IMG/VR virus record: IMGVR_UViG_3300025137_000243
Coordinates: 1-26,311 of that record
Strand: one strand, 5' to 3'
Length of the DNA stretch: 26,311 bases
Source: a virus
How positions within the stretch are numbered: the first letter of the stretch is position 1; every line of letters begins with the position of its first letter. Positions 1 through 24,678 of the stretch are shown here, one piece after another. The translations under genes were made by a program, and so were the position numbers. Under the pieces are notes generated by a model that was not told where the DNA came from, ran no database searches, and was given only the letters and a program-made list of their open reading frames with translations.

Positions 1-1359
1 GTATGTGCAATATATTGTGGTTCAGGTTCAGGTGATGATAATATATTTGCAATTAAAACAGCTAGTAATGCTAATGCTTTTAAATTAGATCAATCAGGAG
101 ATATTGGATTAGGTTTAGCTGCTCAAGATGGTGTTAATTTAAAAGTTTCAGGTTGTACAAGATTAATAGATGATTTAGAAGTAGGAGGTAATATTCAAAC
201 TCCAATGATATCAGCTGATGAATCTAAGAGTAATATAATTATAGGTCAAGCTAGACCTACTAGAAACGGAATTAGTTTACCCACAAATACAAAACATAAT
301 TTTTCTAGTTTTATATCGGGAGCTAATATATCTGGAAGTCAGATATTTGGTGGGTTTAGAAACTGTATAATGGGTCAAGATTCTACTATTATTGGTGGTA
401 ATACTAATAAAATTTTCAGTTCAACTTTTAATAGTGGTTACGCTTGCATCGGTAAAAGTTCATCAACTATTATAGGTGGTACATTTAATACGATGCTTTC
501 TAGCACCGGTGGTGATACATGTAATACAATTATAGGAGGGTCAGCTAATACAGTAGGCGGTCAACATAATATAATAATAAACGGTTATGGTAGCAAAATT
601 ACTAGTACACATCCTAGATATTCTAATATTAGAAATTTAATAGGTCCTAGTTATGCAAGTTGTATATTAGCAGGATACGGTGGTTATAATCAGATCTTAA
701 CCGGAAGATATAACAGAATTACTACTAATAATGATCAAACGGCTATGCAACGAAATACCATAATAAATGGTATTTATAATTGTATTTTCGGTAATAGTAG
801 TATAAATACACATCTTGGTGGTGGTAGTTATAATCAAATTAATGGTTCTAATTATAATACCGTAGGCGGTGGTAGTAATTGTTTGATAGGTGGTTCTCAA
901 AATACTATATTAGGTTTTTTTAATCATTCTACAGGTTCAAAAAATATAATTCTCGGTTGTAAATTAAGAGTAGGTACTGATACAACTTTAACTACTGTAG
1001 TTAATAATTTAAGTGCACAATGTAACATACACGTTAACGGTCAATTACTAGGAGGTACATGTCAGAATAAAATATGTAATTCATCATTTACTTTAGGTAA
1101 TTCAGATAATGGTAAGAGTATATATTTAAACACAGCATCAGGTACAATTAATGTCACAGTTAATTGTATGACATCAGGTTTCGCTACTAGATTTATATTA
1201 GAAGGAGGTTCTAATCCAGTAGCATTTGTTACAGGTGCAGGTTTATCAGGTTTAAATAGTTTTGAAAGTAGAACATGTATGACAGTACCGTTTAGTCAAG
1301 CTGATATAAATTTTAGATCAGAACGATATGCATTTTTAGGAGGTAATTTACAAACATGA
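1..1359 (+). CDS. Partial tail-fibre/adhesin protein, cysteine-rich beta-helix
   Basis: The frame is open from base 1, so the real start lies upstream of the window and 452 codons are seen. The first internal ATG (205) is probably not the start. Most of the visible protein is a run of short repeats of the form I-I-G-G-x-x-N-x-I/C-x, resembling the left-handed beta-roll repeats of YadA-like heads and phage fibres. Cysteines recur at equivalent repeat positions (NCI, SCI, NCL and similar), which is unusual for a phage fibre. The last 100 residues lose the repeat and may be a trimerisation or tip domain. The stop overlaps the next start as ATGA, so the two genes are probably translationally coupled and their products may work together. 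A receptor-binding or fibre role is inferred from repeat architecture. The exact family is not recognised. Confidence 0.7.
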   Translation, partial: VCAIYCGSGSGDDNIFAIKTASNANAFKLDQSGDIGLGLAAQDGVNLKVSGCTRLIDDLEVGGNIQTPMISADESKSNIIIGQARPTRNGISLPTNTKHNFSSFISGANISGSQIFGGFRNCIMGQDSTIIGGNTNKIFSSTFNSGYACIGKSSSTIIGGTFNTMLSSTGGDTCNTIIGGSANTVGGQHNIIINGYGSKITSTHPRYSNIRNLIGPSYASCILAGYGGYNQILTGRYNRITTNNDQTAMQRNTIINGIYNCIFGNSSINTHLGGGSYNQINGSNYNTVGGGSNCLIGGSQNTILGFFNHSTGSKNIILGCKLRVGTDTTLTTVVNNLSAQCNIHVNGQLLGGTCQNKICNSSFTLGNSDNGKSIYLNTASGTINVTVNCMTSGFATRFILEGGSNPVAFVTGAGLSGLNSFESRTCMTVPFSQADINFRSERYAFLGGNLQT

Positions 1360-3185
1360 TTAGAAATACTTTAGTACCATTCCCGCTTTCAAGCACTGTA
1401 ATTCAAAAATTTGCATATGAAAGGCCTGAAGAGTTTGAAAATTTAGCAGTTTATACCCCAGGTGTAACTGAAATATACACAGCTTTACATGCAGTATTTC
1501 CTCCAGGTACCGGCAATGAAAATCTTTCCGGTATTAATTTTGCTGTATTTCACGCAGATGTTAATAGTGGTAGTATAAGTGTTGATTGGGGTGATGGTAA
1601 TACTGAAACTATGACAAGTGGTGCTACTGTTTATCATTTTTATGATTATAATGATTTAAATCCAGATACAGAATTTAGAGGTTATAGACAAGTAGTTTTA
1701 TCAGCTGTACCAGCTACAGATGGTTCTAAATTTTCAGATATAGATATAAATGTTGACGGTCCATGGTCACCAGGATTTACTTCAAATACAAATAGATTTA
1801 ATCAAAATATATTAGATTTAGCAATGAGTTCATCAGGTGCTACAAGAATGAAAATAGGTGGAGGTGATAGGCCATTAAAAATGTGTGAAAAAACTAGACT
1901 TTGTAACACAACGAGTAATCGATTAACAGACCCACAACAAGAATTTTGGGATGGATACACCTCAATACAAGACGTTAACGCACCATATATGCATGTTGAT
2001 ACAACTGAAAGCCATCAAGAAGTTTTTAGACTTTGCTATAAATTAAGAATATTACCTGATGAATTTGCTGATCCAGATAGGTATTGGTTTTGGAATGCAA
2101 GTAGCTTATATTTAGCATTTGATTCCTGTTGGAGTTTAAGATACTTACCTGAAGGTTTATTTGATAAACAAGGCCAGACAAGTGAGTTAGCCAATGTTAC
2201 TGATTATAGATATATGTTTAGATATTGCTATAATTTAAGATATATACCTAGACTACCAGTACGTACATCAGGATCAGCTATAAGAGTTGCATTTATGTTT
2301 GAAGATTGTCAACACCTTATAAAACTTCCTAGAGATTTTAAAGGTAATAACATTACATCATCAAGTAGTAATGGAATAGAACGACTATTTTATAATTGTA
2401 TAGATTTAGAAGATTTTGGAGATTTTAGTTTAGCACAAATGGATTCATCAGCTCGAGCTTATCATAGTATAGCTGCTGAAGGTATTTTTAGACAAACTGG
2501 TAGAGATAAATTTGAAGAAGTGCCGTGGTTAGGGGTAGATCCGACTTTCATTAATAGTAACGCAGACATAGGTGGTATAGGTATTATAAGACCAGGAAAT
2601 GGTCCGAAAAGATTAAATTCACAATATTTTAAAGAACATGGAGGATTATTAGATATGACTAATATTACTGATGCTCAAGATGCTTTTAATTCTAATAGAA
2701 CAATTGAGGCATATCCAATAATTAAAGTCGGTCCTAATAAAATGACTAATAGTAACACTTTATTTAGAATGTTTTTCGGAAATTATTGTTTAAAAACTAT
2801 TCAATTTAGTGGTTTTGATGTAGATGAAACTTTCGGTAATGGTGAATATTATCAAATGTTTTATCAAAATACCCAGTTAGTAGCTATATCAGGCCTACCC
2901 TTTAACGCAGCAAATGATAGTGGAGATTACAGTAGTATGTTTAACAGTATAGGCACACTAGCTCATATAACATTTCCAGGGGCATCAGGAGACGAAACTG
3001 GTTTTTCTGAAAGTATTAGCTTAACTAAGATGCCATTCACTAGACATGAAATAGTTAATATATTTCAATACTTAAAAACGGTTGGTGGTAAAACTATTAC
3101 CTTAACTGATAATAATTTTGCTGATGATTTAACTGCAGGAGAATTAGCAATAGCAACAGGTAAAGGTTGGACAGTAACAACATAA
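1356..3185 (+). CDS. Tail-associated adhesin with PKD-like and BspA-type leucine-rich repeats
   Basis: 609 aa. Residues about 60-120 contain a PKD-like signature (VDWGDGNTE followed by YHFYDY), a beta-sandwich fold common in surface proteins. From about residue 220 onward there are repeats of the type M-F-x-x-C-x-x-L-x-x-I/L-P, the pattern of BspA-like leucine-rich surface repeats (DUF285-type). Both domains are used for protein or glycan binding. No signal peptide is seen, as expected for a virion protein. The start overlaps the stop of the preceding fibre gene (ATGA), and AGGAGG lies at 1338-1343, rather far (12 nt) from the start. A role in host recognition is inferred. It could instead be a fibre tip or baseplate wedge attachment. 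Confidence 0.65.
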   Translation: MIRNTLVPFPLSSTVIQKFAYERPEEFENLAVYTPGVTEIYTALHAVFPPGTGNENLSGINFAVFHADVNSGSISVDWGDGNTETMTSGATVYHFYDYNDLNPDTEFRGYRQVVLSAVPATDGSKFSDIDINVDGPWSPGFTSNTNRFNQNILDLAMSSSGATRMKIGGGDRPLKMCEKTRLCNTTSNRLTDPQQEFWDGYTSIQDVNAPYMHVDTTESHQEVFRLCYKLRILPDEFADPDRYWFWNASSLYLAFDSCWSLRYLPEGLFDKQGQTSELANVTDYRYMFRYCYNLRYIPRLPVRTSGSAIRVAFMFEDCQHLIKLPRDFKGNNITSSSSNGIERLFYNCIDLEDFGDFSLAQMDSSARAYHSIAAEGIFRQTGRDKFEEVPWLGVDPTFINSNADIGGIGIIRPGNGPKRLNSQYFKEHGGLLDMTNITDAQDAFNSNRTIEAYPIIKVGPNKMTNSNTLFRMFFGNYCLKTIQFSGFDVDETFGNGEYYQMFYQNTQLVAISGLPFNAANDSGDYSSMFNSIGTLAHITFPGASGDETGFSESISLTKMPFTRHEIVNIFQYLKTVGGKTITLTDNNFADDLTAGELAIATGKGWTVTT

Positions 3186-3517: not shown

Positions 3518-3709
3518 GTGAATTGTAATTTCATTAAATCTAAATACTATTGCTTTCTTATACATGAAAAGCAAGAAATAGATAGATTGAAATGGATTGA
3601 ATCAGAAAAAGAAAACCGTGATATTGGATATTATAGAGCGGTTTTTTTATGGAATGAAAAGCATAGAACAAGTTGGATAACTCACTATAAAGAATTATCT
3701 ACTTTTTAG
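3518..3709 (+). CDS. Small hypothetical phage protein, GTG start
   Basis: 63 aa. Its core (W-I-E-S-E-K then R-D-I-G-Y then W-x-x-K-H-R-x-x-W) resembles short, Trp-rich conserved proteins common in marine T4-like phages; no function is known to me. The only plausible start is GTG, since the ATG two bases earlier runs straight into a stop. A perfect TATAAATA ends 5 nt before the GTG, the same geometry as other late genes here, which supports this start. The last 11 bases overlap the convergent gp5-like gene. Confidence 0.6.
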   Translation: MNCNFIKSKYYCFLIHEKQEIDRLKWIESEKENRDIGYYRAVFLWNEKHRTSWITHYKELSTF

Positions 3710-5858
3710 AATTACTTCTTGGAGTAGCTGCAGCTCTATCTGTATTACTATTCAATACTTCAGCTGATTCTCTAACATCAGTATTGGTATCTTTCAACGT
3801 TAACGGTAAGTTAGCAAAAGCATGAGAGTGAGCAAAAATAGTAACAGGCCACGTACCAGCAGATGACCCACTACCAACAACAGCTTCACCATGAGCTATA
3901 GTCGTTTCTGACTCTTGATATTCTCTTGGTGCAGTAACATGTTGCAAGAATACTTCACCTTCTACATGCATACCACCACCTATAACAACATTTTTATTAA
4001 TCCCTAAACTACTATCTATTAAAACTTGTCTTTGGTTTTTATTTCTTAATCTTAATATTTCTGCACTTATATTAATTACTTTTCCGGAATCAATATTAAT
4101 TTCATTATCTGAACCTATATTAATTTGTTCACCAGCAATATTAGTTATCGTACCGCTCATATTAACAGGCCCGTAAGATTTTAAATTTAAACCTCCTGCA
4201 CCAACCATTACGTTATATCTATTAGAAACATTTAATGTTGAATTACCTCCAGGTAAATCTTGCACGTGTACATATTCTAATAAAGGTGTACCTTTTTTAT
4301 TAACGTATACTGAACTACTATTAACAACTACTTCACTGTTAGTAAGTTTACCAATATCATCCATTCTAATACTACCAAAATCATTCATTAGAACTCCAAT
4401 AGTTTCTAATTTATGTTTAGCAATTTCTACTATTTCTGAACCTCCTTGACCTAGTTCCAACTCTACGTCAGTAATTTTTTTAAGATTGGCCTGAATCAAT
4501 GTAGATAAATTTTCTTTTTTATCTTCTACATCCCAAGTACCATCTTGCGTAGATATACTCTTGCCTTCCCCACCAGGTCCCCAATTATTATAGTTTAATT
4601 CAGTCCAATTAGCATTAGATGGAGCTTTATTAGTAGACGGATTATCGGAACCGCTAATAGATATATCATCATTATTATCATAAGCTCCTAAACTACCAGG
4701 AGATGTATTAGATTTACCATCTAATGTACCATATTTTACACTACCATCAGTAACTGGATAATTTTCAAAAGAACCAGATCTTTTCTGTTCAGTACTATTT
4801 CTTCTTAATAAAATTAAACCACTTGAATCTTTAACGTTATTGTCAATTGCTCTTTTAGTTTCAAATAATTGTTTATTATCTTGAAAAACTGATACTATAT
4901 CTTTCCATTTTTTATAATACTCTTTATTTAAATTACCTACTTTTCTATAATTGTCTCTTTTTACTATTTCATCTTTATTTTTACTAGTATGTAAATTTTT
5001 ATTACCTTGTACTGTTTCAAATTGATCGTTAAGGACTAATTTTTGATCATTTTTAGTTGCTAGTTCAATATTAGTTTGATTATTAAGTTCTTTAAAAGAA
5101 CCTGAATAATGAGTTAATTTAATCTTTTCATTTAAGTCTGAATTAATTATTTCGAAAGTACCACCTTTTTGATTTAATACATACTTATTTCTATAGTTAT
5201 CAACGTTAGCATCTTCTTCAGTTGTAGATCTACTAAAATTTTCATATTTACCTGGATAGTCTAAATTGCTATCATATATACCTTGCCAATCACTGTTACC
5301 AAAACTAGCACCTAATATAACTGGAAATAAAGGATTACCATCTCTAAAAAATACATATACATGCGCACCAACACTTGGTATACCGAATGAACCTTTTGCT
5401 TTATTAGAATACACACTAGGTTTATACATATATGAATAAGGATTAGCAAAATTACTTTCTCCACTTTTATTAAATGCATCGTTTAATCTGAAAGAAGATT
5501 TTTCATACAATTCTCCTGGTGCAGTTGCTGAACCTGATTGTGATGTCGAAGTAAAATTACTATCAGAAATACTACCTGCTAAATTAAAATTATTAAATCT
5601 ACCTGAAGTATTTTCACCGAATAAAGGTGATGATATCTCTGACCATGGTAAAATAATTTTTAGATCTTCTAAAATAGGAGTTATATCAGAATTAATATTA
5701 TCTCCGATAAATTTAATTTTTTTATCCTTTTTATCAGCAACCCATTTATTATATAAATTAGCTGATACATTAGGTACGTATACTTTAACCCTTCCTCTTT
5801 TTTCTGGGTCATTATTTTGTATTACCATACCTAAATATATGCTATTATACTCTTTCAT
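3699..5858 (-). CDS. 5: Baseplate central spike/hub protein, gp5-like
   Basis: 719 aa. The N-terminus (YLGMVIQNNDPEKRGRVKVY) is the OB-fold start typical of T4 gp5/VgrG spike proteins. A second conserved patch near residues 155-175 (SFGIPSVGAHVYVFF, then LFPVILGAS) matches the phage baseplate-hub OB domain. The C-terminal third is rich in short N-I/I-N-I and V-I-G-G repeats, as expected for the trimeric beta-helical needle. In T4 this protein forms the membrane-piercing spike and carries a lysozyme domain in the middle. I see no lysozyme motif here; residues about 200-540 are low-complexity and Asn/Ser/Asp-rich instead. It has its own late promoter and lies 24 nt downstream of the 232-aa gene, so the two probably belong to one baseplate block. 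Confidence 0.8.
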   Translation of the reverse strand: MKEYNSIYLGMVIQNNDPEKRGRVKVYVPNVSANLYNKWVADKKDKKIKFIGDNINSDITPILEDLKIILPWSEISSPLFGENTSGRFNNFNLAGSISDSNFTSTSQSGSATAPGELYEKSSFRLNDAFNKSGESNFANPYSYMYKPSVYSNKAKGSFGIPSVGAHVYVFFRDGNPLFPVILGASFGNSDWQGIYDSNLDYPGKYENFSRSTTEEDANVDNYRNKYVLNQKGGTFEIINSDLNEKIKLTHYSGSFKELNNQTNIELATKNDQKLVLNDQFETVQGNKNLHTSKNKDEIVKRDNYRKVGNLNKEYYKKWKDIVSVFQDNKQLFETKRAIDNNVKDSSGLILLRRNSTEQKRSGSFENYPVTDGSVKYGTLDGKSNTSPGSLGAYDNNDDISISGSDNPSTNKAPSNANWTELNYNNWGPGGEGKSISTQDGTWDVEDKKENLSTLIQANLKKITDVELELGQGGSEIVEIAKHKLETIGVLMNDFGSIRMDDIGKLTNSEVVVNSSSVYVNKKGTPLLEYVHVQDLPGGNSTLNVSNRYNVMVGAGGLNLKSYGPVNMSGTITNIAGEQINIGSDNEINIDSGKVINISAEILRLRNKNQRQVLIDSSLGINKNVVIGGGMHVEGEVFLQHVTAPREYQESETTIAHGEAVVGSGSSAGTWPVTIFAHSHAFANLPLTLKDTNTDVRESAEVLNSNTDRAAATPRSNSKK

Positions 5859-6587: not shown

Positions 6588-6595
6588 TATTTACT
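6588..6595 (-). promoter_or_regulatory. Late promoter of the 232-aa gene
   Basis: AGTAAATA on the minus strand, 6 nt before the ATG at 6581. A variant of the late consensus, divergent from the early-type promoter of the deazaguanine operon. Confidence 0.4.
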
Positions 6596-6622
6596 TGATT
6601 ATTACGTTTTAGATGTTATAAT
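6595..6622 (+). promoter_or_regulatory. Sigma70-like promoter of the deazaguanine operon
   Basis: TTGATT at 6595-6600, 16 nt spacing, then an extended -10 (TG-T-TATAAT, with TATAAT at 6617-6622) 6 nt before the ATG at 6629. It is not of the late type, suggesting earlier expression, as a DNA-modification operon would need. Confidence 0.5.
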
Positions 6623-6628
6623 TATGGT

Positions 6629-7417
6629 ATGTTAGTATCTCATGAAAGTCCTATTAGTATATTAGATAAATCGAGAATGTATAATGACTATGATTATGCG
6701 TTAGTTCATTTATTTGAAACTCATCCTGATTATTATAATTTTTTTAAAGACAGTGTTACTGTTGGTAGAGAAGTGCTATTAGATAATAGTATTTTTGAAC
6801 TTGGTGAATCTTTTGATTCCGATAAATTTGCTAAATATGCAAATGAATTAAAACCTACTTATTATATAGTACCTGATGTTTTAGAAGATGGTTATAAAAC
6901 GATACAGGGGTTTGATAATTTTGTTAATAAATATCCTGATTTACCTGGGTTGAAGATCGGAGTAGTGCAAGGTAAAACTTGGGATGAGTTAGTTGATTGT
7001 TATAAGTATATGTCTGATAATGCTGATTATATTGCAATTAGTTTTGATTATAGTTATTATATAGTTACTGGGGTAGGTAAAACTAAACTTGAAAGATATT
7101 CAACTGGTAGATATAAATTTATAAATGATCTTCAGCGTGAAGGTATTTGGAATAAACATAAACCTCATCATTTATTAGGTTGCTCATTAGCTAAAGAATT
7201 TAATTTATATGTAAATGATAGATCTATTAGATCAGTAGATACATCTAATCCAGTAGTAGCAGGTATTAAGGAACTACGATATAATGGTAATTTAGGTTTA
7301 AATGATAAACCTTCTATTAAACTTGCAGATTTAATCGATCATGAAGTAACAGATACACAAATGGAAAATATAGAATATAATGTTAAGAATTTTAGAAAGA
7401 TTGTAAATGGTAGTTAG
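6629..7417 (+). CDS. dpdA: DpdA-like 7-deazaguanine DNA transglycosylase (TGT-fold)
   Basis: 262 aa. The pattern matches tRNA-guanine transglycosylase relatives of the phage DpdA type. VPDVLED (residues 81-87) parallels the substrate-binding Asp segment. GVVQGKTWDELVDCY (111-125) parallels the GIVQGG loop of TGT. ISFD (137-140) follows, then HLLG (181-184). SVDTSNP (202-208) has Asp204 at the place of the TGT nucleophile. DpdA exchanges guanine in DNA for a 7-deazaguanine such as preQ0 or preQ1, protecting phage DNA from restriction. At 262 aa it is shorter than bacterial tRNA TGT (about 370) and lacks an obvious C-x-C-x2-C zinc motif, which fits phage DpdA better than a tRNA enzyme. It overlaps the next gene by 11 nt, and QueF is third in the operon, which strengthens the call. 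A tRNA-modifying role is the main alternative. Confidence 0.75.
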   Translation: MLVSHESPISILDKSRMYNDYDYALVHLFETHPDYYNFFKDSVTVGREVLLDNSIFELGESFDSDKFAKYANELKPTYYIVPDVLEDGYKTIQGFDNFVNKYPDLPGLKIGVVQGKTWDELVDCYKYMSDNADYIAISFDYSYYIVTGVGKTKLERYSTGRYKFINDLQREGIWNKHKPHHLLGCSLAKEFNLYVNDRSIRSVDTSNPVVAGIKELRYNGNLGLNDKPSIKLADLIDHEVTDTQMENIEYNVKNFRKIVNGS

Positions 7418-7961
7418 TTTTACAGGAGCTCAAAGTACAGGTAAATCTACTCTTTTTAATTTATTGAAAAGTTCTGATAGATTTCGTAAATTTAATTTTG
7501 TATGTGAATTAACTAGAACGTTGAAAGAAGATTATAATCTTAATATAAATGAAGAAGGTAATGATATAACTCAATTAGCTATACTTAATGGTCATTTTAT
7601 GAATTATTTAAAGTATAAAAATACTAATGTATTGTTAGATAGATGTATTTTAGATGGAGTTGTATATACTACCTATCTTTATCATACTGGTAAAGTTAGT
7701 AAAGAGGTAGCTGAATATGCAGATTATTTAACTAGTAAATTGGTTAATAGCGTGGATATAATCTTTTATACAGAACCTGATGTACCGTTGGTAGATGATG
7801 GTGAACGTAGTATAAACATAGAATTTAGAAATAAAGTAATAGATCTATTTGAAGAAGCAATTACTCATTACAATATAGATGTAGTAAGATTGAAAGGATC
7901 GGTAGAAGAAAGAATAGAAACAATTAAAGATAAATATGACTTATGGCAAACAATAAATTAG
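7407..7961 (+). CDS. NadR-like P-loop ATPase/kinase (AAA_28 type)
   Basis: 184 aa. The N-terminus has a Walker A motif GAQSTGKST (residues 7-15). A hydrophobic strand ending in LLDR (about 72-75) is a probable Walker B or DR motif. FYTEPDVPLVDDGERS (about 126-141) closely resembles the lid region of NadR ribosylnicotinamide-kinase and related AAA_28 proteins. These enzymes phosphorylate small nucleosides or act in NAD salvage. Its start lies inside the dpdA-like gene (11 nt overlap) and its end inside queF (19 nt overlap), so the three are translated as one unit. That suggests a role in deazaguanine supply or use, for example nucleoside phosphorylation, but an unrelated NAD-salvage role is equally possible from the sequence alone. 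Confidence 0.75.
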   Translation: MVVSFTGAQSTGKSTLFNLLKSSDRFRKFNFVCELTRTLKEDYNLNINEEGNDITQLAILNGHFMNYLKYKNTNVLLDRCILDGVVYTTYLYHTGKVSKEVAEYADYLTSKLVNSVDIIFYTEPDVPLVDDGERSINIEFRNKVIDLFEEAITHYNIDVVRLKGSVEERIETIKDKYDLWQTIN

Positions 7962-8872
7962 ATAACAGTAATATTAGTAAACATTTAGGAGCAATATCTC
8001 AATATAAGAGTACTTATGATCCTGGATTGCTCGTAAAAGAGCCTCGTAGTAATAATAGAGAATACCTTAATATATTTGACGATGACTTACCTTTTGTGGG
8101 GTATGATACATGGAATGCATATGAAGTATCGTTTCTATTAGAAAATGGTAGACCAGTGACAGGTGTAGCTAAATGTGTATATCCATGCACGAGTAAATAT
8201 ATTGTAGAGAGTAAGAGTATAAAGTTATACTTTAATTCTTATAATATGAGTAAGATTGCTAGTAATAAGGATGAAGCAGTTCAATCATTTGAAGCAACTG
8301 CAAGTGAAGATTTAAGTAATTTATTGGAAACTGATGTAGTAGTATCTTTCCAAGACGGAGTAAGAGTTAATAATAAATTTGATAGTCCTAATAATGAATG
8401 GGATATAGATGAATATTTAAATGTAGATCTTCTAGAAGATCATAAAGATTTTAAATATACACAATATACAGAAGATCCTAGTTTATTAGAAGCTATTAGC
8501 CGTACAAAAGATCTTGAACAAAAGTTTTATTCAGGTCTACTAAAGAGTAATTGTCGTGTTACTTCTCAACCAGATTGGGGAGATGTATTCATCTATATTA
8601 AATCAAAGAATGCTATCGATGCTCATAGTATAAAAAACTATATTATATCATTTAGAGATGAGTGTCATTTTCATGAAGAGATTTGCGAATGTATCTATAA
8701 AAGATTAAAAGATGCTTTTGAACCTAGTGAGCTTTTAGTGATGTGTTTATATGCTAGAAGAGGTGGTATTGATATTAATCCAGTTAGAGCGTCAGATATA
8801 AATCTAATTAACTTACTTGCTGATAATTTAATAGATAGTAAAGCAATTCATATTAAGACATCTAAACAATAA
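7943..8872 (+). CDS. queF: QueF, NADPH-dependent 7-cyano-7-deazaguanine (preQ0) reductase
   Basis: 309 aa, the full length of the E. coli-type two-domain QueF. Seen motifs are the N-terminal Y-K-S-x-Y-D-P-x-L-L (21-30), the QueF signature ESKSIKLY (89-96, NADPH binding), LLKSNCRVTSQPDWG (199-213) with catalytic Cys204 and Asp211, FHEE (243-246) giving His244 and Glu245, and RRGGIDINP (272-280). All key residues of a working enzyme are present. QueF reduces preQ0 to preQ1. Next to a DpdA-like gene, the expected outcome is preQ1, or a derivative, in phage DNA. preQ0 synthesis genes (folE, queD, queE, queC) are not in the window, so preQ0 must come from the host or from elsewhere in the phage. 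The gene is last in its operon, ahead of a strong terminator. Confidence 0.93.
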   Translation: MANNKLDNSNISKHLGAISQYKSTYDPGLLVKEPRSNNREYLNIFDDDLPFVGYDTWNAYEVSFLLENGRPVTGVAKCVYPCTSKYIVESKSIKLYFNSYNMSKIASNKDEAVQSFEATASEDLSNLLETDVVVSFQDGVRVNNKFDSPNNEWDIDEYLNVDLLEDHKDFKYTQYTEDPSLLEAISRTKDLEQKFYSGLLKSNCRVTSQPDWGDVFIYIKSKNAIDAHSIKNYIISFRDECHFHEEICECIYKRLKDAFEPSELLVMCLYARRGGIDINPVRASDINLINLLADNLIDSKAIHIKTSKQ

Positions 8873-8895
8873 ATTTAATATCTAATTATTGTAAC

Positions 8896-8932
8896 AAAAA
8901 AGACCCAGCCGATAACTCGACTGGGTCTTTTG
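8896..8932. terminator. Bidirectional rho-independent terminator
   Basis: The stem AAAAGACCCAG / CTGGGTCTTTT has a loop that itself can pair (CGA/TCG). It is flanked by A and T runs, so it can act on both strands. It ends the queF operon (+) and the gp23 gene (-), which converge here. Confidence 0.85.
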
Positions 8933-8954
8933 TTGAAGTGTATAAGACTTAAGA

Positions 8955-10448
8955 TTATCCGAAGTACACGCTGTTTGTACCAGGTGTAAACGCTTCTCCG
9001 AGTCCTGTACAAATGATAACGTGATAGTATAGATTAGCACCGAAAATATTGTCAACGACACCATAACGTGTAAGCAAGCCTACGCGAGGTGCGAAGTCAT
9101 TAGGTCCGATTGTTCTCTGTACCATAACTGGGATGTATGGGCAGTAGATAATACCAGTGTCATAGAATTCAGGTCCCTTGTATCCAAGTAGAGCATATTC
9201 AAGACGAGCACCACGTAATGTAGACCCTCCTTGAGCTTCTGCTTGACCTTCTGTTCTTGTGTCACGATAAACGTTGAAACGTCCACCAAGATTACCAATC
9301 TTAGCAACACCTACTGGTTGTGTATTAACATTACCTTGGACTGGTACCCACTGGAATTCAGGGAGCATTTCCAAGATAGCGCATACACGAGGTGTAGCTA
9401 CGATGAAGTTAGCAGCACCACGGCGATTTCTCACTGCGATTCTATTAGCTTCTACGATAATTCTTTGATAGAAATCTCTGTTACGTTCTACTAACCAACG
9501 ACCATCTGCAGAAGCAGGACTCCATACAGAGTAACCTGAACCACGTCCAGCATTTAGAGCAACTTGAATCATTCTCATCAACATTTCTCTATCGATTTCA
9601 GCCTGAATTTCATATGACATTGCATTTGTTAATTCAGTATCGATATCGATACCATTCATGTTTTTAAGATCTTGTTCAAGTTCAACTGACCAGCGAGCGC
9701 CTAAGCGTCTAGTACCGGCTTCAACAGCTGTCTTCTCGAAAGAAACTTCGAAGTTAGGAATATTACCTGTAATTTCAAAGTTCTGAAGAAGAGCTGCAAC
9801 ACCTTGATCCTGTTCTTCCATAGTGAAAGCTGCATCTGCATCTCCACCACCGGATAAGAACGATGCCGAAGCACCTGTATAACGAGTATCAAGTCTTTGA
9901 TAACCAGCTTCTGTACCACCAGTTTCACGTAAAGTGGAAACTTGTGAGCCAGGACCTGAATTACCAGTGCCTAAACCGTCAATACCAGAACCTAGAGTTT
10001 CATCTGAATAGCGATAACGCAATGCAAATGCTAACCCAACTGGTCCAGCCATTGGTTGAACACCAACGATTTCATTTGTAATTAACTCGGGAAAAGTACG
10101 TCTAATCATCGGAATCAAGATTTTCGGCAAACGAGCATCAGCTGGTGCGTATGTATCCAAGCCTGGTGTACCACCAACTTGATTAGGAGCGCCAATTGAA
10201 GAACCATTACCTAGTGAACCGCCAGTACCTGACTGATTCGCATTAGAAGGTGTATAGTTAGGTCCAGCCTCTTGAATACACCATGCTTCTTGGTTTTCAA
10301 GTAGCATTGCTGTATTTAAACGGGTGTGACTATCTTCGATTGCTGCAACACTTTTAGATGTGTAATCCAATACTGGACCCCATTTTTCTAAAAGAGAAGC
10401 TGCTCTTGATTCATCTATATAAGCCTGTGTAGGTCTAATTGATTTCAT
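8955..10448 (-). CDS. 23: Major capsid protein, gp23-like
   Basis: 497 aa from the ATG at 10448, chosen because AAAGGA lies a few bases upstream; a longer TTG-started frame (10478) is rejected. The sequence matches T4-family major capsid proteins throughout: an N-terminal acidic/helical propeptide, the RRTFPELITNEIVGVQPM segment, Gly-rich loops, and the C-terminal YGVVDNIFGANLYYH. An (I/L)-x-E prohead protease site, IQE, is at residues 58-60, predicting removal of a 60-residue propeptide by gp21 (T4 removes 65). The gene is visibly richer in G+C than its neighbours, as is common for the most highly expressed phage gene. It follows the scaffold gene and has a structured, Shine-Dalgarno-bearing leader, unlike most other genes here. 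Confidence 0.95.
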   Translation of the reverse strand: MKSIRPTQAYIDESRAASLLEKWGPVLDYTSKSVAAIEDSHTRLNTAMLLENQEAWCIQEAGPNYTPSNANQSGTGGSLGNGSSIGAPNQVGGTPGLDTYAPADARLPKILIPMIRRTFPELITNEIVGVQPMAGPVGLAFALRYRYSDETLGSGIDGLGTGNSGPGSQVSTLRETGGTEAGYQRLDTRYTGASASFLSGGGDADAAFTMEEQDQGVAALLQNFEITGNIPNFEVSFEKTAVEAGTRRLGARWSVELEQDLKNMNGIDIDTELTNAMSYEIQAEIDREMLMRMIQVALNAGRGSGYSVWSPASADGRWLVERNRDFYQRIIVEANRIAVRNRRGAANFIVATPRVCAILEMLPEFQWVPVQGNVNTQPVGVAKIGNLGGRFNVYRDTRTEGQAEAQGGSTLRGARLEYALLGYKGPEFYDTGIIYCPYIPVMVQRTIGPNDFAPRVGLLTRYGVVDNIFGANLYYHVIICTGLGEAFTPGTNSVYFG

Positions 10449-10453
10449 AGTAT

Positions 10454-10528
10454 ATTTTCCTTTATTATTCGACCCCAAGGTTTATGAAAACCAGGAAACT
10501 CAGGAATACCTAAAATTATATAAAAAAT
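10454..10528 (-). promoter_or_regulatory. Structured leader of the major capsid gene with strong RBS
   Basis: The gap between gp22 and gp23 holds a possible -10 (TATAAT at 10515-10520), a small hairpin (GGTTT/AAACC, 10479-10492) and AAAGGA about 10 nt before the start. This gives an untranslated leader of roughly 60 nt, in contrast to the near-zero leaders predicted for other genes. Confidence 0.4.
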
Positions 10529-11386
10529 TTAGTATTTTGAAAGCTCGTCCATATAAGGTGTTGGAGCAGAACTGCTACCTGAAGACGTTTCTTCATAAAT
10601 CACCCGATCGACGTTATCTCTCTTGCTTAAAGCTTCTTCCTTTAAAGACTCGAGTCTGCCACTTTCTTTCTTAGAGAAAAGCTTCAATGTATAATCAAAA
10701 TTCTCAGAGATAAAGTCATATCCTTTACCTTTTAATTGTTTTGCCATATACTTTTTAGCTCTTTCATCAAGCTTAACAGTCTTTTGTTCAAATAATAGAT
10801 CAGATTTAATTTGATCTAAATTTTCTCTTAAAACTGCATTTTCTTCTGCAACAGACTCAAGCTTACTAGAAGCTTCATTTATTTGTTTCTTACCATCGAT
10901 AACAGCTTCTTTAATGCTTTCTTTTTCAAGAGCACTATCAACTGCTAAATGGTTTCTTAATCCTTCTAATACTTTAACAGCTTTTGTATTTTTAACTGCT
11001 TCTTCAATTGTATCAGTAGGTACTTTTTCTTCTAGATATACATCTAGATAATTAGAAATATTTTCAACTAAATCACTTTGGAAACCTGAAGCACTTTCAT
11101 TAATTTCACTTTCATATTTTTCGATAACCATTTTAAGCTTATTAGCTCTATCTGAATCGATTGCTTCAACTACTCTTTGTAATTTATCTGAATGATCGAC
11201 ATCAATTTTTTCAACAAGCTCTGTTAACTTCTCTGTATACATTTCGTCTTGCCTGTTTAATGCATCTTCTACATGTAATTCAACCTTATCGTTGACTTTA
11301 CTTTCGAATACAGTTTCAATTTCAGATAGAACTTCATCGTTAAGTGCTCCACCAGTTGCTTCTTTTAATATTTGTTTAATGTCCAT
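10529..11386 (-). CDS. 22: Prohead scaffold protein, gp22-like
   Basis: 285 aa, highly charged and almost entirely helical with heptad-like patterning over residues about 20-220, as expected of the T4 prohead core protein gp22. The C-terminus is Ser-rich (EETSSGSSS). In T4, gp22 forms the internal core around which gp23 assembles and is then degraded by gp21. Position directly between the gp68-like/gp21 genes and gp23 is the conserved T4 order and the main basis for the name. The start follows the gp68-like stop by 3 nt with no clear promoter of its own, so it is probably read through from the gp68 promoter. Confidence 0.8.
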   Translation of the reverse strand: MDIKQILKEATGGALNDEVLSEIETVFESKVNDKVELHVEDALNRQDEMYTEKLTELVEKIDVDHSDKLQRVVEAIDSDRANKLKMVIEKYESEINESASGFQSDLVENISNYLDVYLEEKVPTDTIEEAVKNTKAVKVLEGLRNHLAVDSALEKESIKEAVIDGKKQINEASSKLESVAEENAVLRENLDQIKSDLLFEQKTVKLDERAKKYMAKQLKGKGYDFISENFDYTLKLFSKKESGRLESLKEEALSKRDNVDRVIYEETSSGSSSAPTPYMDELSKY

Positions 11387-11539: not shown

Positions 11540-11547
11540 TATTTATA
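11540..11547 (-). promoter_or_regulatory. Late promoter of the gp68-like/scaffold genes
   Basis: Exact TATAAATA on the minus strand, 6 nt before the ATG at 11533. It overlaps the last codons of the gp21 gene. Confidence 0.65.
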
Positions 11548-12211
11548 GAGTTCTTAAAAATTTGATAATATTATCTCTTAAAAACGTGTCTTTATCTTTT
11601 AAAGGCATGTTACTTATATTTTTTTCAAAAGTTTCATATGATTCTTCAAATTGACCATACTTATTAACAACATATTGTTTGCTTTCTAAAATACCATTAA
11701 CAAATGCTTTTGGAAATGATGGATCAGCTACGCAGTCAATAGCAACTAATTTAAAATCTTTTACTCTATTAATACCATCTGTACCAGATTCTGGAATTAA
11801 TTGACCTAATGCTCTAGAACTCATACCAACTCTAACCCCATCATTAATTAAACTTCTAACTATTAACCCGGTTGGTGTAGAAAGCACTTTACTTTTACCG
11901 TAAAATACATTTCCTTCTTGAGACATTTCAGTTACTAAATGACAAGCTCTCTCTAGATCAACATCTGCAGTAGTAGGATGATTTAACTCACCCATTGCAC
12001 GTCCTGTTTTAACCATCATGTTTTCGTATCGTTTAATCTCACGTTGCATTTCTTCTAAAGGGTAAATTCTTTTATTTCTATTTACCCCTTCAGCCATCAT
12101 ATAAGGTCCTTTAATATAAAAGTTTTTACTATCTTTTGAGTTACCTTCCTCAACGATATATTCAAACTCTTCCTTAGGAGCTGGTGTTTCTACAATTAAG
12201 TTTAATCCCAT
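11543..12211 (-). CDS. 21: Prohead core protease, gp21-like
   Basis: 222 aa (T4 gp21 is 212). Clear match to the T4 gp21 serine protease family: GPYMMAEGVNRNKRIYP at residues 35-51, the catalytic-His motif GELNHP (His78), and the catalytic-Ser motif GMSSRALG (Ser131/Ser132). A VAIDCVADPSFP segment follows at the expected distance. The enzyme matures the prohead by cutting scaffold and capsid propeptides after (I/L)-x-E, and a matching IQE site is present in the gp23 protein of this window. It carries an exact late promoter 5 nt before the start. Confidence 0.92.
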   Translation of the reverse strand: MGLNLIVETPAPKEEFEYIVEEGNSKDSKNFYIKGPYMMAEGVNRNKRIYPLEEMQREIKRYENMMVKTGRAMGELNHPTTADVDLERACHLVTEMSQEGNVFYGKSKVLSTPTGLIVRSLINDGVRVGMSSRALGQLIPESGTDGINRVKDFKLVAIDCVADPSFPKAFVNGILESKQYVVNKYGQFEESYETFEKNISNMPLKDKDTFLRDNIIKFLRTL

Positions 12212-12234: not shown

Positions 12235-12699
12235 TTATTTCCATCCGCAATTCAATTCTTTCTCAGTGACTATTAAGAATTTATAACCTTTTTTATCAGC
12301 CCATTCTTGAGCTGCTTTCCATTTAGCTACATTAATAACATATGTTTTTTGTTCGTATAACATAGTTGAACTTTTTTTCTTTTTAGATCTTACTGGTCTT
12401 TTAGTCTGTTTACTCGGTTTTATTTCAATTAAAAATTTATTATTATTACCATTTCTATCTTTAAAAATTATAAAATTATCTACAAAATACCTATGCACCT
12501 TATTATCTAAAGGACTTAAGTATGGTATTATAACATTTTCACTACCCCATTTTAATATATTTTCATTGCAATCAGCCCATTTAAAAAATTTCAATTCCCA
12601 ACCTGATCTAAAGATAGGTAACTTCTTTCCTATATATTTTTCTATATTAACAGGCTTATATACACCTTGTTTAAATTTATTTCTATTATTATTTTTCAA
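12235..12699 (-). CDS. 4: Head completion protein, gp4-like (TnsA-type nuclease fold)
   Basis: 154 aa (T4 gp4 is about 150). Conserved features of the gp4 head-completion family are seen: Y-K-P-V-N near residues 14-18, FRSGWELKFFKWAD, ILKWGSENVIIPY, SPLDNKVHRYFVDNF and FLIEIKPSKQT, ending with WKAAQEWADKKGYKF. The E...D...E-x-K pattern is that of a TnsA/restriction-endonuclease-like fold. In T4 the protein completes DNA-filled heads before tail joining. The only available start is TTG at 12699, which is 17 nt from the divergent gene at 12717. It lies inside the head cluster, as expected. Confidence 0.88.
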   Translation of the reverse strand: MKNNNRNKFKQGVYKPVNIEKYIGKKLPIFRSGWELKFFKWADCNENILKWGSENVIIPYLSPLDNKVHRYFVDNFIIFKDRNGNNNKFLIEIKPSKQTKRPVRSKKKKSSTMLYEQKTYVINVAKWKAAQEWADKKGYKFLIVTEKELNCGWK

Positions 12700-15677: not shown

Positions 15678-17414
15678 TTAAACCTCTGGAGTTGCATCAG
15701 CACCGGCATCAGCACCAGGTTCGCCTTCAGCACCACCTACCTCTGCGGGTCCCCCTCCAAAGTCTGGAGGAGTTTCAGGACTAACTTCTCCTCCTGCTAT
15801 AGGTGGTAAACCAGTACCTTCAGCTCCTGGAGCACCACCTTTTTCAAGATCATCTCTCCAGTTAGGTCCTCCACCACCGATTTGTTGAATCTCCCATTGA
15901 AGCTCAGCATCTTTTCTTAAGAATTCTCTATTAGCTTTAATTTCTATATCATTCCATCCTAGATATCTTTTTTGTGCATATGTAGATGATACAAATTCAC
16001 TACCAGCTAATGTATTATAATTTTGAGCTTTTAATTCAAGTTTTTGATTTTCTCTTAACTCATAAAAGTTAGTCGGTACATTAAACTCAAGATATAAGTC
16101 ATTAGCGTTTAATTCATACTTTTCAAATAAACCTGTTAATTTCAGGTGAGTCATGAAACCATTTTTAAGACCAGTTGCAAATTGTTGTTGCAATCTAATA
16201 ATAAATTTAGCAAACTTAAGCTCTTCTCTAAGCATATCTAAACCATCATTATATGATGATTCACTATTCAATCTATTGGTAGGTACTTTTAATGCTTTAT
16301 ATAGTTTATTAACAAAGTATACTAAATCTGCTAATTCACCTAAATTAGCTCCACCTTGTAATTGAGTAACTGATGTTCCATCAGAACCTGCTCTCTTAGC
16401 AAACCAGAAACTATCTAACATTGATTGAGGGTTAAATTTTTGAACTTGCCCTGATTGATTAACGTCAAATGTCTTTTTACTCCAATACTCTTGAATAAGT
16501 TTTCTTAAGTAAGCTTCAGCTTTAGGTGGTGCCATATTACCGACATCAACATTAAAAACTAATCTTTCAGGAGCTCTAACTAATCTATATATAACAATAG
16601 CATCTTCAATTAAAGATAATTGTCTATAAGCTCTTCTTGCGTTTTCTATATGAGGTAATCTAAATGTCTTATCTTGATTCCAAATACCTGAATTAACATA
16701 TGAGATTTGATTCTCATCCATTGGTATAAAGTCATACTTATCAATTTTTTCAGGTTTATTTTCATTAAAGATTGGTTTACGTAAAACGAATCCTTTAATA
16801 ATCATATTTTGAATATTGTCATATATAGGATCTATTAAATCAGGAGGTAGCATAACTGCACCTAATATACCATCTTGTGTAAATCCGTTATGAATAATAT
16901 GCTCAAAATAAACTTCACCTTCTATTAATAATTGTCTGAAATATTCAAAACCTTTTTTATCTAAATTAAAATAACCAATATATTTTTCAAATTGATCCCT
17001 TATCTCTTGTGTTTTTTCAGCATCAAGATCAGAACCATTCTTAAATTTTAAAGTTACTATGTTACCGCTTTCATCTTTATTGATACACTCATCACAAATT
17101 TCGTCTAATGCATCACTAATCTCAGCAAACGCAGCCATAATTCTATAATCTCTTAATCTACCTCCTTTATTCTCTTCAATATTTGCGTAAACTAAAGAGT
17201 TATAATTACCATCTACAGCAATTTGACCTGCACCTTGGTTATTAAAATCGTTATTATAAAATATAGAATTTTTAGCTAAAGCTTCTACTCTTCTCATTCC
17301 AGTATCCTGAAACGTACTATACTTTGGATTGAGATCTTGCATTACTGCATTAAAATCCATAGTTTGGTAAGGTAGTTTATTAACTAAGTTTTTGAAAAAT
17401 CCTTGCTCGGCCAT
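15678..17414 (-). CDS. 20: Portal protein, gp20-like
   Basis: 578 aa. Strong match to T4-type portal proteins: MAAFAEISDALDEICDECI near residues 88-106, then GEVYFEHII, a LPHIENARRAYRQLSLIEDAIVIYRL(V)RAPERLVF helix-rich block, KVPTNRLNSES, and the LKFAKFIIRLQQQF segment. The last 60 residues are Gly/Pro/Glu/Ala-rich low complexity. The portal is the dodecameric ring at the capsid vertex through which DNA is packaged and on which head assembly starts. Own late promoter. The usual gp17-18-19 neighbours are not in the window, so order differs from T4. Confidence 0.95.
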   Translation of the reverse strand: MAEQGFFKNLVNKLPYQTMDFNAVMQDLNPKYSTFQDTGMRRVEALAKNSIFYNNDFNNQGAGQIAVDGNYNSLVYANIEENKGGRLRDYRIMAAFAEISDALDEICDECINKDESGNIVTLKFKNGSDLDAEKTQEIRDQFEKYIGYFNLDKKGFEYFRQLLIEGEVYFEHIIHNGFTQDGILGAVMLPPDLIDPIYDNIQNMIIKGFVLRKPIFNENKPEKIDKYDFIPMDENQISYVNSGIWNQDKTFRLPHIENARRAYRQLSLIEDAIVIYRLVRAPERLVFNVDVGNMAPPKAEAYLRKLIQEYWSKKTFDVNQSGQVQKFNPQSMLDSFWFAKRAGSDGTSVTQLQGGANLGELADLVYFVNKLYKALKVPTNRLNSESSYNDGLDMLREELKFAKFIIRLQQQFATGLKNGFMTHLKLTGLFEKYELNANDLYLEFNVPTNFYELRENQKLELKAQNYNTLAGSEFVSSTYAQKRYLGWNDIEIKANREFLRKDAELQWEIQQIGGGGPNWRDDLEKGGAPGAEGTGLPPIAGGEVSPETPPDFGGGPAEVGGAEGEPGADAGADATPEV

Positions 17415-20258: not shown

Positions 20259-20266
20259 TATTTAAT
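20259..20266 (-). promoter_or_regulatory. Late promoter of the gp15-like gene
   Basis: ATTAAATA on the minus strand, 6 nt before the GTG at 20252. It overlaps the last codons of the phosphoribosyltransferase gene and supports the GTG start. Confidence 0.5.
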
Positions 20267-20714
20267 GTTTATCCCAGGGAAAGACATACCAAGCATCGCC
20301 TTCATATTCAGCTCCATAAAATCCTTTAGTAAATTTAGACGTTTGTCTTTTAATACATGCGCTATAGTATATTTCTTTAATTTCTCCTCTATCATAATGA
20401 TAATTTAAATATTTAGAAACTACATCGAAAGTCAAACCTGAATCATTTATATCATCAACTACTAATACATTACCTGCAAGTGAAGGATTACCGTAATATT
20501 GTGTCTCTTCTACGTCTCTAGTTCTTACACCGAGCATATCTAAGTATGGAGTTTCTAATTGATAACTTATCATAGTAGCTGGTATCATTCCTCCTCTTGC
20601 TATACCTAAAATAGAATCTATTTTTATATTTTTATCTTTTATATATGTTAAAATATTATCATTAAATGAAGATATATCACTCCAAGATATATTTTTAAGA
20701 TTCTTACTGCCCAT
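20262..20714 (-). CDS. Type I phosphoribosyltransferase (purine, Gpt/Hpt-like)
   Basis: 150 aa. It has the PRPP-binding signature VLVVDDINDSGLTF (about residues 83-96) and the upstream ILGIARGGMIPATMIS loop (about 36-51) typical of purine phosphoribosyltransferases. A C-terminal W-x-V-F-P-W resembles the xanthine-guanine type. Such enzymes join PRPP to a purine base to make a nucleotide, acting in salvage in the cytoplasm. The substrate cannot be fixed by eye. Its promoter is of the TATAAT class rather than the late class, suggesting expression apart from the structural genes around it. Confidence 0.82.
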   Translation of the reverse strand: MGSKNLKNISWSDISSFNDNILTYIKDKNIKIDSILGIARGGMIPATMISYQLETPYLDMLGVRTRDVEETQYYGNPSLAGNVLVVDDINDSGLTFDVVSKYLNYHYDRGEIKEIYYSACIKRQTSKFTKGFYGAEYEGDAWYVFPWDKH

Positions 20715-23465: not shown

Positions 23466-23888
23466 ATGTATCAATATAAAGCAATTATAACAAAGGTAAT
23501 CGATGGTGACACTGTTGATGTAGATATCGATTTAGGTTTCGATGTATGGTTAAAGAATCAGCGCATCAGACTATACGGCATAGACACACCAGAGAGTAGA
23601 ACGTCAGATAAAGTAGAAAAGGTATTCGGTAACTTAGCAAAAGCTAAAGTGCTACACTTCTGCCCTGTAGGTGAAAAAATAGTCCTTCAGACTAGAACAG
23701 ACGACAGTAGAGGCAAATACGGTAGAATCTTAGGTGAACTAATTACCGATGAAGGTATTAATGTCAATACTTACCTTGTAGAAAATAGTTATGCAGTTGA
23801 ATACTTCGGTATGTCGAAAGAAGACATAGCTCAAAAGCAGTTAGATAACCGTCAAATTATTCTTGAAAGAGGAGAAGTTACAATTTAA
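23466..23888 (+). CDS. Thermonuclease (staphylococcal nuclease-like, SNase family)
   Basis: 140 aa with the full SNase core: KVIDGDTVDVDIDLGFDVWL (residues 11-30, Ca-binding Asp residues), IRLYGIDTPESR (about 35-46, catalytic Arg and Glu region), and RGKYGRILGEL (about 79-89, second catalytic Arg). The family cuts DNA and RNA with calcium. No signal peptide is seen, so it would act in the cytoplasm unless released by lysis, perhaps in host DNA breakdown or late DNA processing. Late promoter with near-zero leader. Genes of this family recur in marine T4-like phages. Confidence 0.9.
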   Translation: MYQYKAIITKVIDGDTVDVDIDLGFDVWLKNQRIRLYGIDTPESRTSDKVEKVFGNLAKAKVLHFCPVGEKIVLQTRTDDSRGKYGRILGELITDEGINVNTYLVENSYAVEYFGMSKEDIAQKQLDNRQIILERGEVTI

Positions 23889-24288: not shown

Positions 24289-24678
24289 ATGAGCCATTTC
24301 GGAGATCATATTATAATAGATTTGTATAATTGTAAGATAGGTTCCTTAAGTGATGAGGAACGTATTAAGAATTGTATTAATGATATAGTTAAAGCTTGTA
24401 ATATGGAACTAATGAACGTTCCTGTTATATATAAAGCTAAGCCGATATCGGAACGCGATAAAGGAGGCTATACAGCATTCGCAGTAATAACTGAGAGTCA
24501 TATATCGATGCATACGTTCCCGTTCCGTGGTTATAACTCTATAGATGTATATACTTGTAGGAACGATCTCGACCATAATAAGGTACTAGAGATAGTAGAT
24601 AAGTATTTCGTTCCAGATAATAAAGACGTGTCTATAGTTAAAAGAGGTATACAGTTCCCTAATGAAGACGTTATATAG
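24289..24678 (+). CDS. speD: S-adenosylmethionine decarboxylase proenzyme
   Basis: 129 aa, the size of the short bacterial/archaeal SpeD. The self-cleavage site Glu69-Ser70 (ITESHISMHTFP) gives a pyruvoyl group on Ser70. His75 and Cys90 stand 5 and 15 residues further on, the same spacing as Ser63, His68 and Cys83 of the Thermotoga enzyme. It makes decarboxylated S-adenosylmethionine, the aminopropyl donor for spermidine. speD is a known auxiliary gene of marine T4-like phages. It has a non-late promoter and stands alone between two terminated units. Its sequence is saturated with GGAAC/GTTCC. Its 3' end overlaps a small lipoprotein gene. Confidence 0.95.
   Translation: MSHFGDHIIIDLYNCKIGSLSDEERIKNCINDIVKACNMELMNVPVIYKAKPISERDKGGYTAFAVITESHISMHTFPFRGYNSIDVYTCRNDLDHNKVLEIVDKYFVPDNKDVSIVKRGIQFPNEDVI

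Follow-up and report, generated by a model that had tools for sequence, protein, structure and literature searches.

By what route might a phage replace the guanine of its genome, and would the exchange be made in finished DNA or in the nucleotides from which the DNA is built? The question is raised by a cassette of three overlapping genes at positions 6629-8872 of the IMG/VR virus record IMGVR_UViG_3300025137_000243. The window analyzed here is that whole record, 26,311 bases, which is itself a fragment, so that the absence of other genes from it says little. The cassette had been predicted, from the letters alone, to combine a DpdA-like transglycosylase, a P-loop kinase, and a full-length QueF, and to place preQ1 (7-aminomethyl-7-deazaguanine) in the phage DNA. 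The observation behind this original prediction was confirmed, and its interpretation is supported in part. Judging by the DpdA-type protein, the complete QueF, and the homologs of both, the cassette very probably serves to place preQ1, or a base derived from it, in the phage DNA. What had been overlooked is that the kinase, mentioned without a role, belongs to the system throughout, and that homologs occur in phages whose guanine is replaced completely and not just marked in part. As the smallest natural set, namely, a transglycosylase, a kinase, and QueF, the cassette poses a sharp, testable question: does the transglycosylase act on deoxyguanosine monophosphate (dGMP) or on DNA?

The three genes are real. 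The open reading frames (ORFs), all on the plus strand, span 6629-7417 (262 amino acids, aa), 7407-7961 (184 aa), and 7943-8872 (309 aa), and overlap by 11 bases (first and second) and 19 bases (second and third), as had been noted before. The trio recurs, its order unchanged, in dozens of contigs, with kinase identities of 44-94%, and the ORFs therefore cannot be due to chance.

The nature of the 262-aa protein (6629..7417, plus strand) is disclosed by its fold. No Pfam or NCBIfam family, those of tRNA-guanine transglycosylase (TGT) included, matches it, a sequence search of the PDB with the protein or its profile gave no meaningful match, and its own PHROG, phrog_19058 (8.5e-69), has no assigned function; comparison of folds alone was productive. 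All 50 of the best PDB fold matches of its AlphaFold model (pLDDT 94.8) are TGTs, with E down to 8e-9 and TM-scores of 0.59-0.69 by query length. The residues D52, N53, D83, H181, G184, and D204 do not vary over 12 diverse phage homologs, and Asp204, the candidate nucleophile in the motif SVDTSNP, is also invariant in 44 metagenomic homologs, Asp52 and Asp83 being the other invariant acids. In a sequence alignment with a weak profile score, VVQGKT, KPHHLLG, and VDTSNP are collinear with IIQGS, KPRYLMG, and FDCVMPTR of Escherichia coli TGT, and the LDNSxF and SxDTS motifs of the group align with LDSGAF and SxDSS of DpdA1. The protein falls short of the length of E. coli TGT by about 110 residues (the tRNA TGT type is about 375 aa long) and has only two cysteines, Cys124 and Cys185, so that it lacks the C-terminal zinc site, of three Cys and one His, of the tRNA enzymes.

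Hidden Markov models (HMMs) separate this group cleanly from DpdA1, DpdA2, and TGT, with own-family HMM scores of 1e-59 or better and E values of about 2-3 for the window protein against DpdA1 and DpdA2 profiles. In a viral fold library, three proteins of the group match the model with TM-scores of 0.83-0.93, compared with about 0.5-0.66 for DpdA1- and DpdA2-type proteins. Solid homologs were found among phage proteins only. Those in GenBank include a protein of Flavobacterium phage immuto (52% identity, annotated as DpdA / DNA guanine transglycosylase) and proteins of Campylobacter phages of the genus Firehammervirus (49-50%; CP220, 49.6%), and remote homologs occur in Cellulophaga, Bacillus, Weizmannia, Rhizobium, Chryseobacterium, and Aeromonas phages; an IMG/VR scan with the Youna2 DpdA gave no matches. 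Thus, by model and profile, the protein is a compact subfamily member of the TGT/DpdA fold, apart from tRNA TGT, DpdA1, and DpdA2, and the DpdA-type assignment with Asp204 as the candidate nucleophile, outside the tRNA-specific clade, agrees with fold, motifs, and homologs alike. The subfamily is probably the one that Cui et al. 2023 reportedly named DpdA3, which is said to include the CP220-type transglycosylase of Campylobacter phages and to permit complete replacement of guanine.

The third gene (7943..8872, plus strand) encodes a QueF, the NADPH-dependent 7-cyano-7-deazaguanine (preQ0) reductase that yields preQ1, of the full-length, two-domain type of E. coli and Vibrio. Both of its Pfam matches, QueF_N (PF14819, 1.6e-34) and QueF (PF14489, 2.8e-22), lie over the Pfam cut-offs, and it matches Vibrio cholerae QueF (3bp1) at 5e-44. 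The catalytic residues that had been pointed out, Cys204, Asp211, His244, and Glu245, are all invariant in an alignment that includes the V. cholerae protein, as is the ESKSIKLY signature. Because its score against TIGR03138 (247 bits) stays below the NCBIfam equivalog cut-off of 293 bits, the protein is a clear but divergent homolog, and because the NADPH-binding motif is intact, it reads as a reductase and not as an archaeosine synthase of the QueF-L kind. In Streptococcus phage Dp-1, a QueF homolog of broadly this type accompanies the deoxynucleoside of preQ1 (dPreQ1) in the DNA (PMC6884629).

Where would the preQ0 come from? The original prediction, noting that no gene for preQ0 synthesis was in sight, had the phage draw on host preQ0 by means of a minimal, host-fed cassette. 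Most window-type relatives carry the cassette between a gp5-type hub gene and gp23, on the opposite strand. Dozens of uncultured marine T4-like phages share this one location, which marks the cassette as a fixed part of that lineage. The window fragment lacks queC, queD, and queE, but such same-site relatives carry these genes elsewhere in their contigs, queC in L035 and L060, and both queD and queE in L049, L056, and L060, which makes the host-fed idea unlikely, though less firmly so for the window phage itself. Since FolE was not found in the window-type same-site relatives, that step may fall to the host. In a more distant locus, L080, dpdA, a formyltransferase gene, the kinase, queF, queC, queE, and queD form a single run, the last three being named from sequence. 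If the reading of the cassette is right, preQ1-type genome modification would be a settled feature of a widespread marine T4-like lineage rather than an occasional acquisition.

The kinase (7407..7961, plus strand, 184 aa) is the element of the cassette that merits attention. It is a P-loop protein of the AAA_28 / thymidylate-kinase / deoxynucleoside-kinase / NadR-kinase group (PF13521, 1.1e-19), its profile matches thymidylate kinase (1.2e-5), and its fold resembles those of deoxyadenosine kinase, NadR, and dTMP kinase. The fold neighbors span nucleoside kinases (deoxycytidine kinase, deoxyadenosine kinase, NadR) and nucleoside monophosphate kinases (thymidylate kinase). When the kinase served as the sole bait, the best 80 IMG/VR loci contained dpdA in every case and queF in 77, and in the three without queF, the available stretch stops 28, 34, and 319 bases past the kinase. 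A preset rule that made no use of annotation (a small kinase-type ORF on the same strand, no more than 1.5 kb from dpdA) picked out such an ORF in 15 of 17 DpdA3-type loci and in none of 14 DpdA1/DpdA2 loci (Fisher p 5e-7, a value that overstates the case, the loci within a lineage being related and the lineages not independent). Later inspection revealed, in each of the two loci that the rule misses, L103 and L104, a longer upstream ORF that ends in a kinase-like domain; the domain of L104 has a degenerate P-loop and lies about 1.5 kb from dpdA. A kinase-type gene or domain is thus close to dpdA in all 17 DpdA3-type loci, in unrelated phages (five types, two fused). These are the AAA_28 type in the window, immuto, CP220, and CC_R7; the AAA_18 type in Cellulophaga and Chryseobacterium phages; the DNMK type (PF21448) in Aeromonas phage Ahp1 and L107; the DUF3310 type (the T7 gp1.7 family, annotated as nucleotide kinase) in L110, L120, and Rhizobium phage I1_18, where it is fused to dpdA (L009:5965-7233); and a fifth P-loop kind in Bacillus and Weizmannia phages. 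Five kinase types are a better argument for partnership than the p-value, and, to judge from these gene neighborhoods, the partnership of a kinase with the DpdA3-type transglycosylase is general. An unnamed domain of about 130 aa (EGIHxxP, PHRHxFxF, DRDxEF) was also seen, standing alone upstream of dpdA in the Aeromonas-type loci L107, L110, and L120, and fused to the kinase-like domain in the Cellulophaga-type loci L103 (3082-3996) and L104 (1489-2457).

We propose that the 184-aa protein is a kinase for a modified deoxynucleotide. The end bases differ between phages, being amido in CP220, presumably formyl-preQ1 in immuto, and presumably preQ1 in the window phage, whereas the kinase is common to them, so that its target is more probably the nucleotide than the side chain. 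Beyond the genes, the fold, the catalytic residues, and the constant partnership, which are established, we infer a substrate, a product, an extent of replacement, and a nucleotide-level step as follows. Phage QueD, QueE, and QueC, encoded elsewhere, as in the relatives, would make preQ0 with FolE from the host, and QueF would reduce it to preQ1. A dGTP diphosphohydrolase, where encoded, would turn dGTP into dGMP, on which the DpdA3-type enzyme would swap guanine for preQ1 via a covalent Asp204 intermediate. The kinase would convert the resulting d(preQ1)MP to the diphosphate and the host would supply the triphosphate, from which the polymerase would build DNA with preQ1 for most or all guanine, and such DNA would block restriction enzymes. 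Genes of the dGTP-diphosphohydrolase family PF18909 do occur between the formyltransferase gene and the kinase in L077, L078, and L085, and one is present in the window-type contig G001. Further genes that act on dNTPs are seen in several phages and speak for the proposal: MazG in phi19:2, PRA-PH in immuto, DCD/dUTPase types in other dpdA3-type loci, and a LOG-type protein (PF03641, a nucleotide-cleaving family, possibly a nucleotide phosphoribohydrolase) that L078 encodes at 1125-1817, inside its dpdA-formyltransferase-PF18909-kinase-queF cassette. The account as a whole, guanine replaced by preQ1 with exchange on dGMP and a kinase step, falls just short of an even chance. To its generalization, in which DpdA3-type enzymes are nucleotide-level transglycosylases that feed d(7-deazaG)MP through a dedicated kinase into the deoxynucleotide pool, the genome being built without guanine, we give nearly as much credence as doubt. 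Should it hold, it would explain why all guanine can be replaced in DpdA3-type phages as against the fractional marking by DpdA1 and DpdA2, and it would bear on the question of how every guanine gets replaced in CP220-type phages.

The published route, with a probability somewhat below even, would have DpdA3 act after replication, exchanging guanine for preQ1 in DNA already made, with the kinase as a nucleotide-supply helper only, for example, one that phosphorylates GMP or dGMP made from released guanine that is salvaged with a phosphoribosyltransferase (PRTase). Several points weigh against a nucleotide-level exchange. Crippen et al. (J Virol 2019) reportedly detected dITP (deoxyinosine triphosphate) and no phosphates of the amido product dADG (2'-deoxy-7-amido-7-deazaguanosine) in CP220-infected cells and concluded that insertion is into existing DNA, which speaks for the published route, and Cui 2023 (NAR) is said to place insertion after replication. 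Polymers are the substrates of TGT and DpdA1, a precedent that, with the TGT fold of the window protein, favors the same route, and nucleotide kinases, like dUTPases, are frequent in the replication clusters of phages. Moreover, the 14 DpdA1/DpdA2 control loci were drawn from few lineages, and a search of 21 records of relatives yielded PF18909 in only 2 and the MazG family in none. Also in favor of the published route, the dpdA gene is needed for DNA modification in CAjan (Hutinet 2019, PMC6884629).

PRTase genes near several dpdA3-type systems are consistent with the published route as well. The window has one (20262..20714, minus strand; PF00156, 2.7e-9; phrog_8995), a candidate accessory gene by genome context, whose homologs are flanked by queE and folE in immuto and follow queD in L080; PRTases are also found beside queD in L120, upstream of dpdA in L103, and in 7 of the 10 window-type contigs searched. 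The window PRTase may salvage the guanine that base exchange releases. What the published route leaves unexplained is that five kinase types stand beside, or are fused to, DpdA3-type genes and none beside DpdA1 or DpdA2, and that a dGTP-diphosphohydrolase-family gene lies inside some cassettes. Between insertion at the nucleotide level and at the DNA level, the chances appear about evenly balanced. One candidate sign, the acidic isoelectric point of DpdA3 as a mark of no DNA binding, was rejected, DpdA1 (5.6) and DpdA2 (5.8) being about as acidic as the DpdA3-type group (5.4).

Under either insertion route, preQ1 could be an intermediate that is finished by an enzyme encoded outside the fragment, formyltransferase-like or a methyltransferase, although we regard this as unlikely. 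A formyltransferase-family gene does lie between dpdA and the kinase in immuto and in most of the distant relatives L075-L091, and Cui 2023 reportedly named such a formyltransferase DpdN, for formyl-preQ1. No match to the family was found, however, in 12 same-site window-type contigs of up to 93 kb, all of them fragments in which an enzyme encoded at a distance could have gone unseen, and since the window type is without it, plain dPreQ1 is the simplest prediction. That the genes instead boost queuosine in host or phage tRNA as an aid to translation, with the DNA unmodified, is very improbable: QueF is an enzyme of the queuosine pathway, tRNA boosting has been discussed for phages with preQ0 genes and no DpdA (PMC6884629), and the window has one tRNA-Asn(GTT), with a Q-type anticodon, but the transglycosylase lacks a zinc site and belongs to a group separate from TGT, the solid homologs found for it are all phage proteins, and CP220, which has the closest kinase-dpdA pair among characterized phages, has fully modified DNA.

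The single promoter that the three genes had been thought to share fared unevenly. A sigma70-type sequence, TTGATT-N16-TATAAT, with 10 of 12 consensus matches, lies at 6595..6622 on the plus strand, its -10 box ending 6 nt before the dpdA ATG. By consensus count, such sites are not above chance (15 found, 19.1 expected), and this argument for the promoter was dropped, but the motif TTGA-N16/18-TATAAT is kept, with a varying spacer, at the cassette start in about 21 relatives. In most window-type relatives, the -10 box likewise ends about 6 nt before the ATG, with no room for a ribosome-binding site, which suggests that the dpdA message is leaderless or nearly so. Between queF and the convergent gp23 gene, a stem-loop flanked by A and T runs (8885..8945; folding energy -21.9 kcal/mol, with a z of -6.1 relative to shuffled sequences) has the look of a bidirectional terminator.

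The surroundings bear out the T4-like character that had been assigned to the genome. The cassette is embedded in T4-type structural genes on the minus strand: a gp5-type hub gene (3699-5858), gp23 (8955-10478), a gp22-like gene (10529-11386), the gp21 protease gene (11543-12211), a gp4-like head-closure gene (12235-12699), gp20 (15678-17414), and a gp15-type gene (17445-20252). The nearest gp23 proteins among cultured phages are those of cyanophages, at just 32-35% identity. In a 26-kb fragment of structural genes, the lack of hydroxymethylcytosine genes, to which the original prediction had appealed, carries no weight. The gp15-type gene encodes an unusual fusion of 935 aa, which starts as a gp15 tail-sheath stabilizer and continues with tail-fiber and laminin-G-like segments. 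Two plus-strand ORFs at 205-3185 (384 and 609 aa) have matches that are only weak and of the repeat type (phrog_9915, and an ice-binding beta-roll that stays below cut-off) and possibly encode tail-fiber or adhesin proteins, and a staphylococcal-nuclease-type endonuclease (PF00565, phrog_452) is encoded at 23466-23888. The window also has an S-adenosylmethionine decarboxylase gene (24289-24678), with no queE beside it; in relatives, the ORF directly after queE, in L143 (4893-5240) and L145 (5310-5678), is of the S-adenosylmethionine decarboxylase kind by sequence.

Set against known systems, the cassette, taken by the original prediction as a distinct anti-restriction strategy, is not new, but a relative of known Flavobacterium and Campylobacter phage cassettes. 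Flavobacterium phage vB_FspM_immuto_2-6A (NC_055915) shares with the window dpdA (52%), an AAA_28 kinase (36%), and a full-length QueF (48%) in the same order, as well as a PRTase; unlike the window, it has a formyltransferase-family gene between dpdA and the kinase, queD, queE, and folE beside the cassette with queC elsewhere, and a cassette site other than that at gp23. In the Firehammervirus phages CP220 and CPt10, dpdA (about 50%) is directly followed by an AAA_28 kinase (about 38%), within a T4-like structural region, and CP220 also carries queC, queD, and folE; they differ from the window in having no adjoining QueF, an amido rather than an aminomethyl product, and a second related kinase elsewhere. 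In CP220 and CPt10, 100% of deoxyguanosine is replaced by dADG (PMC8306585), and the Campylobacter phages had been counted among those without a recognizable DpdA (Hutinet 2019, PMC6884629). Phages with DpdA1 or DpdA2 reach about 30% modification at most (PMC6884629). The DpdA1 systems (phage 9g, CAjan) and DpdA2 systems (Vibrio phage nt-1, KVP40-like) likewise rely on a TGT-related transglycosylase and come with preQ0 genes, and DpdA2 is paired with QueF in KVP40-like and pf16 phages, but their enzymes belong to other subfamilies, of about 280-464 aa, have no kinase neighbor, and modify DNA partially. Diaminopurine (Z) genomes, in which base replacement is complete and proceeds through the deoxynucleotide pool with a dNTP-hydrolyzing helper, are alike in logic only: with PurZ, a MazG-like dNTP hydrolase, and a dedicated polymerase, they involve a different base, different enzymes, and no transglycosylase. 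If DpdA3 does act at the nucleotide level, it would open a second way, next to that of the Z genomes, to replace a base completely through the deoxynucleotide pool.

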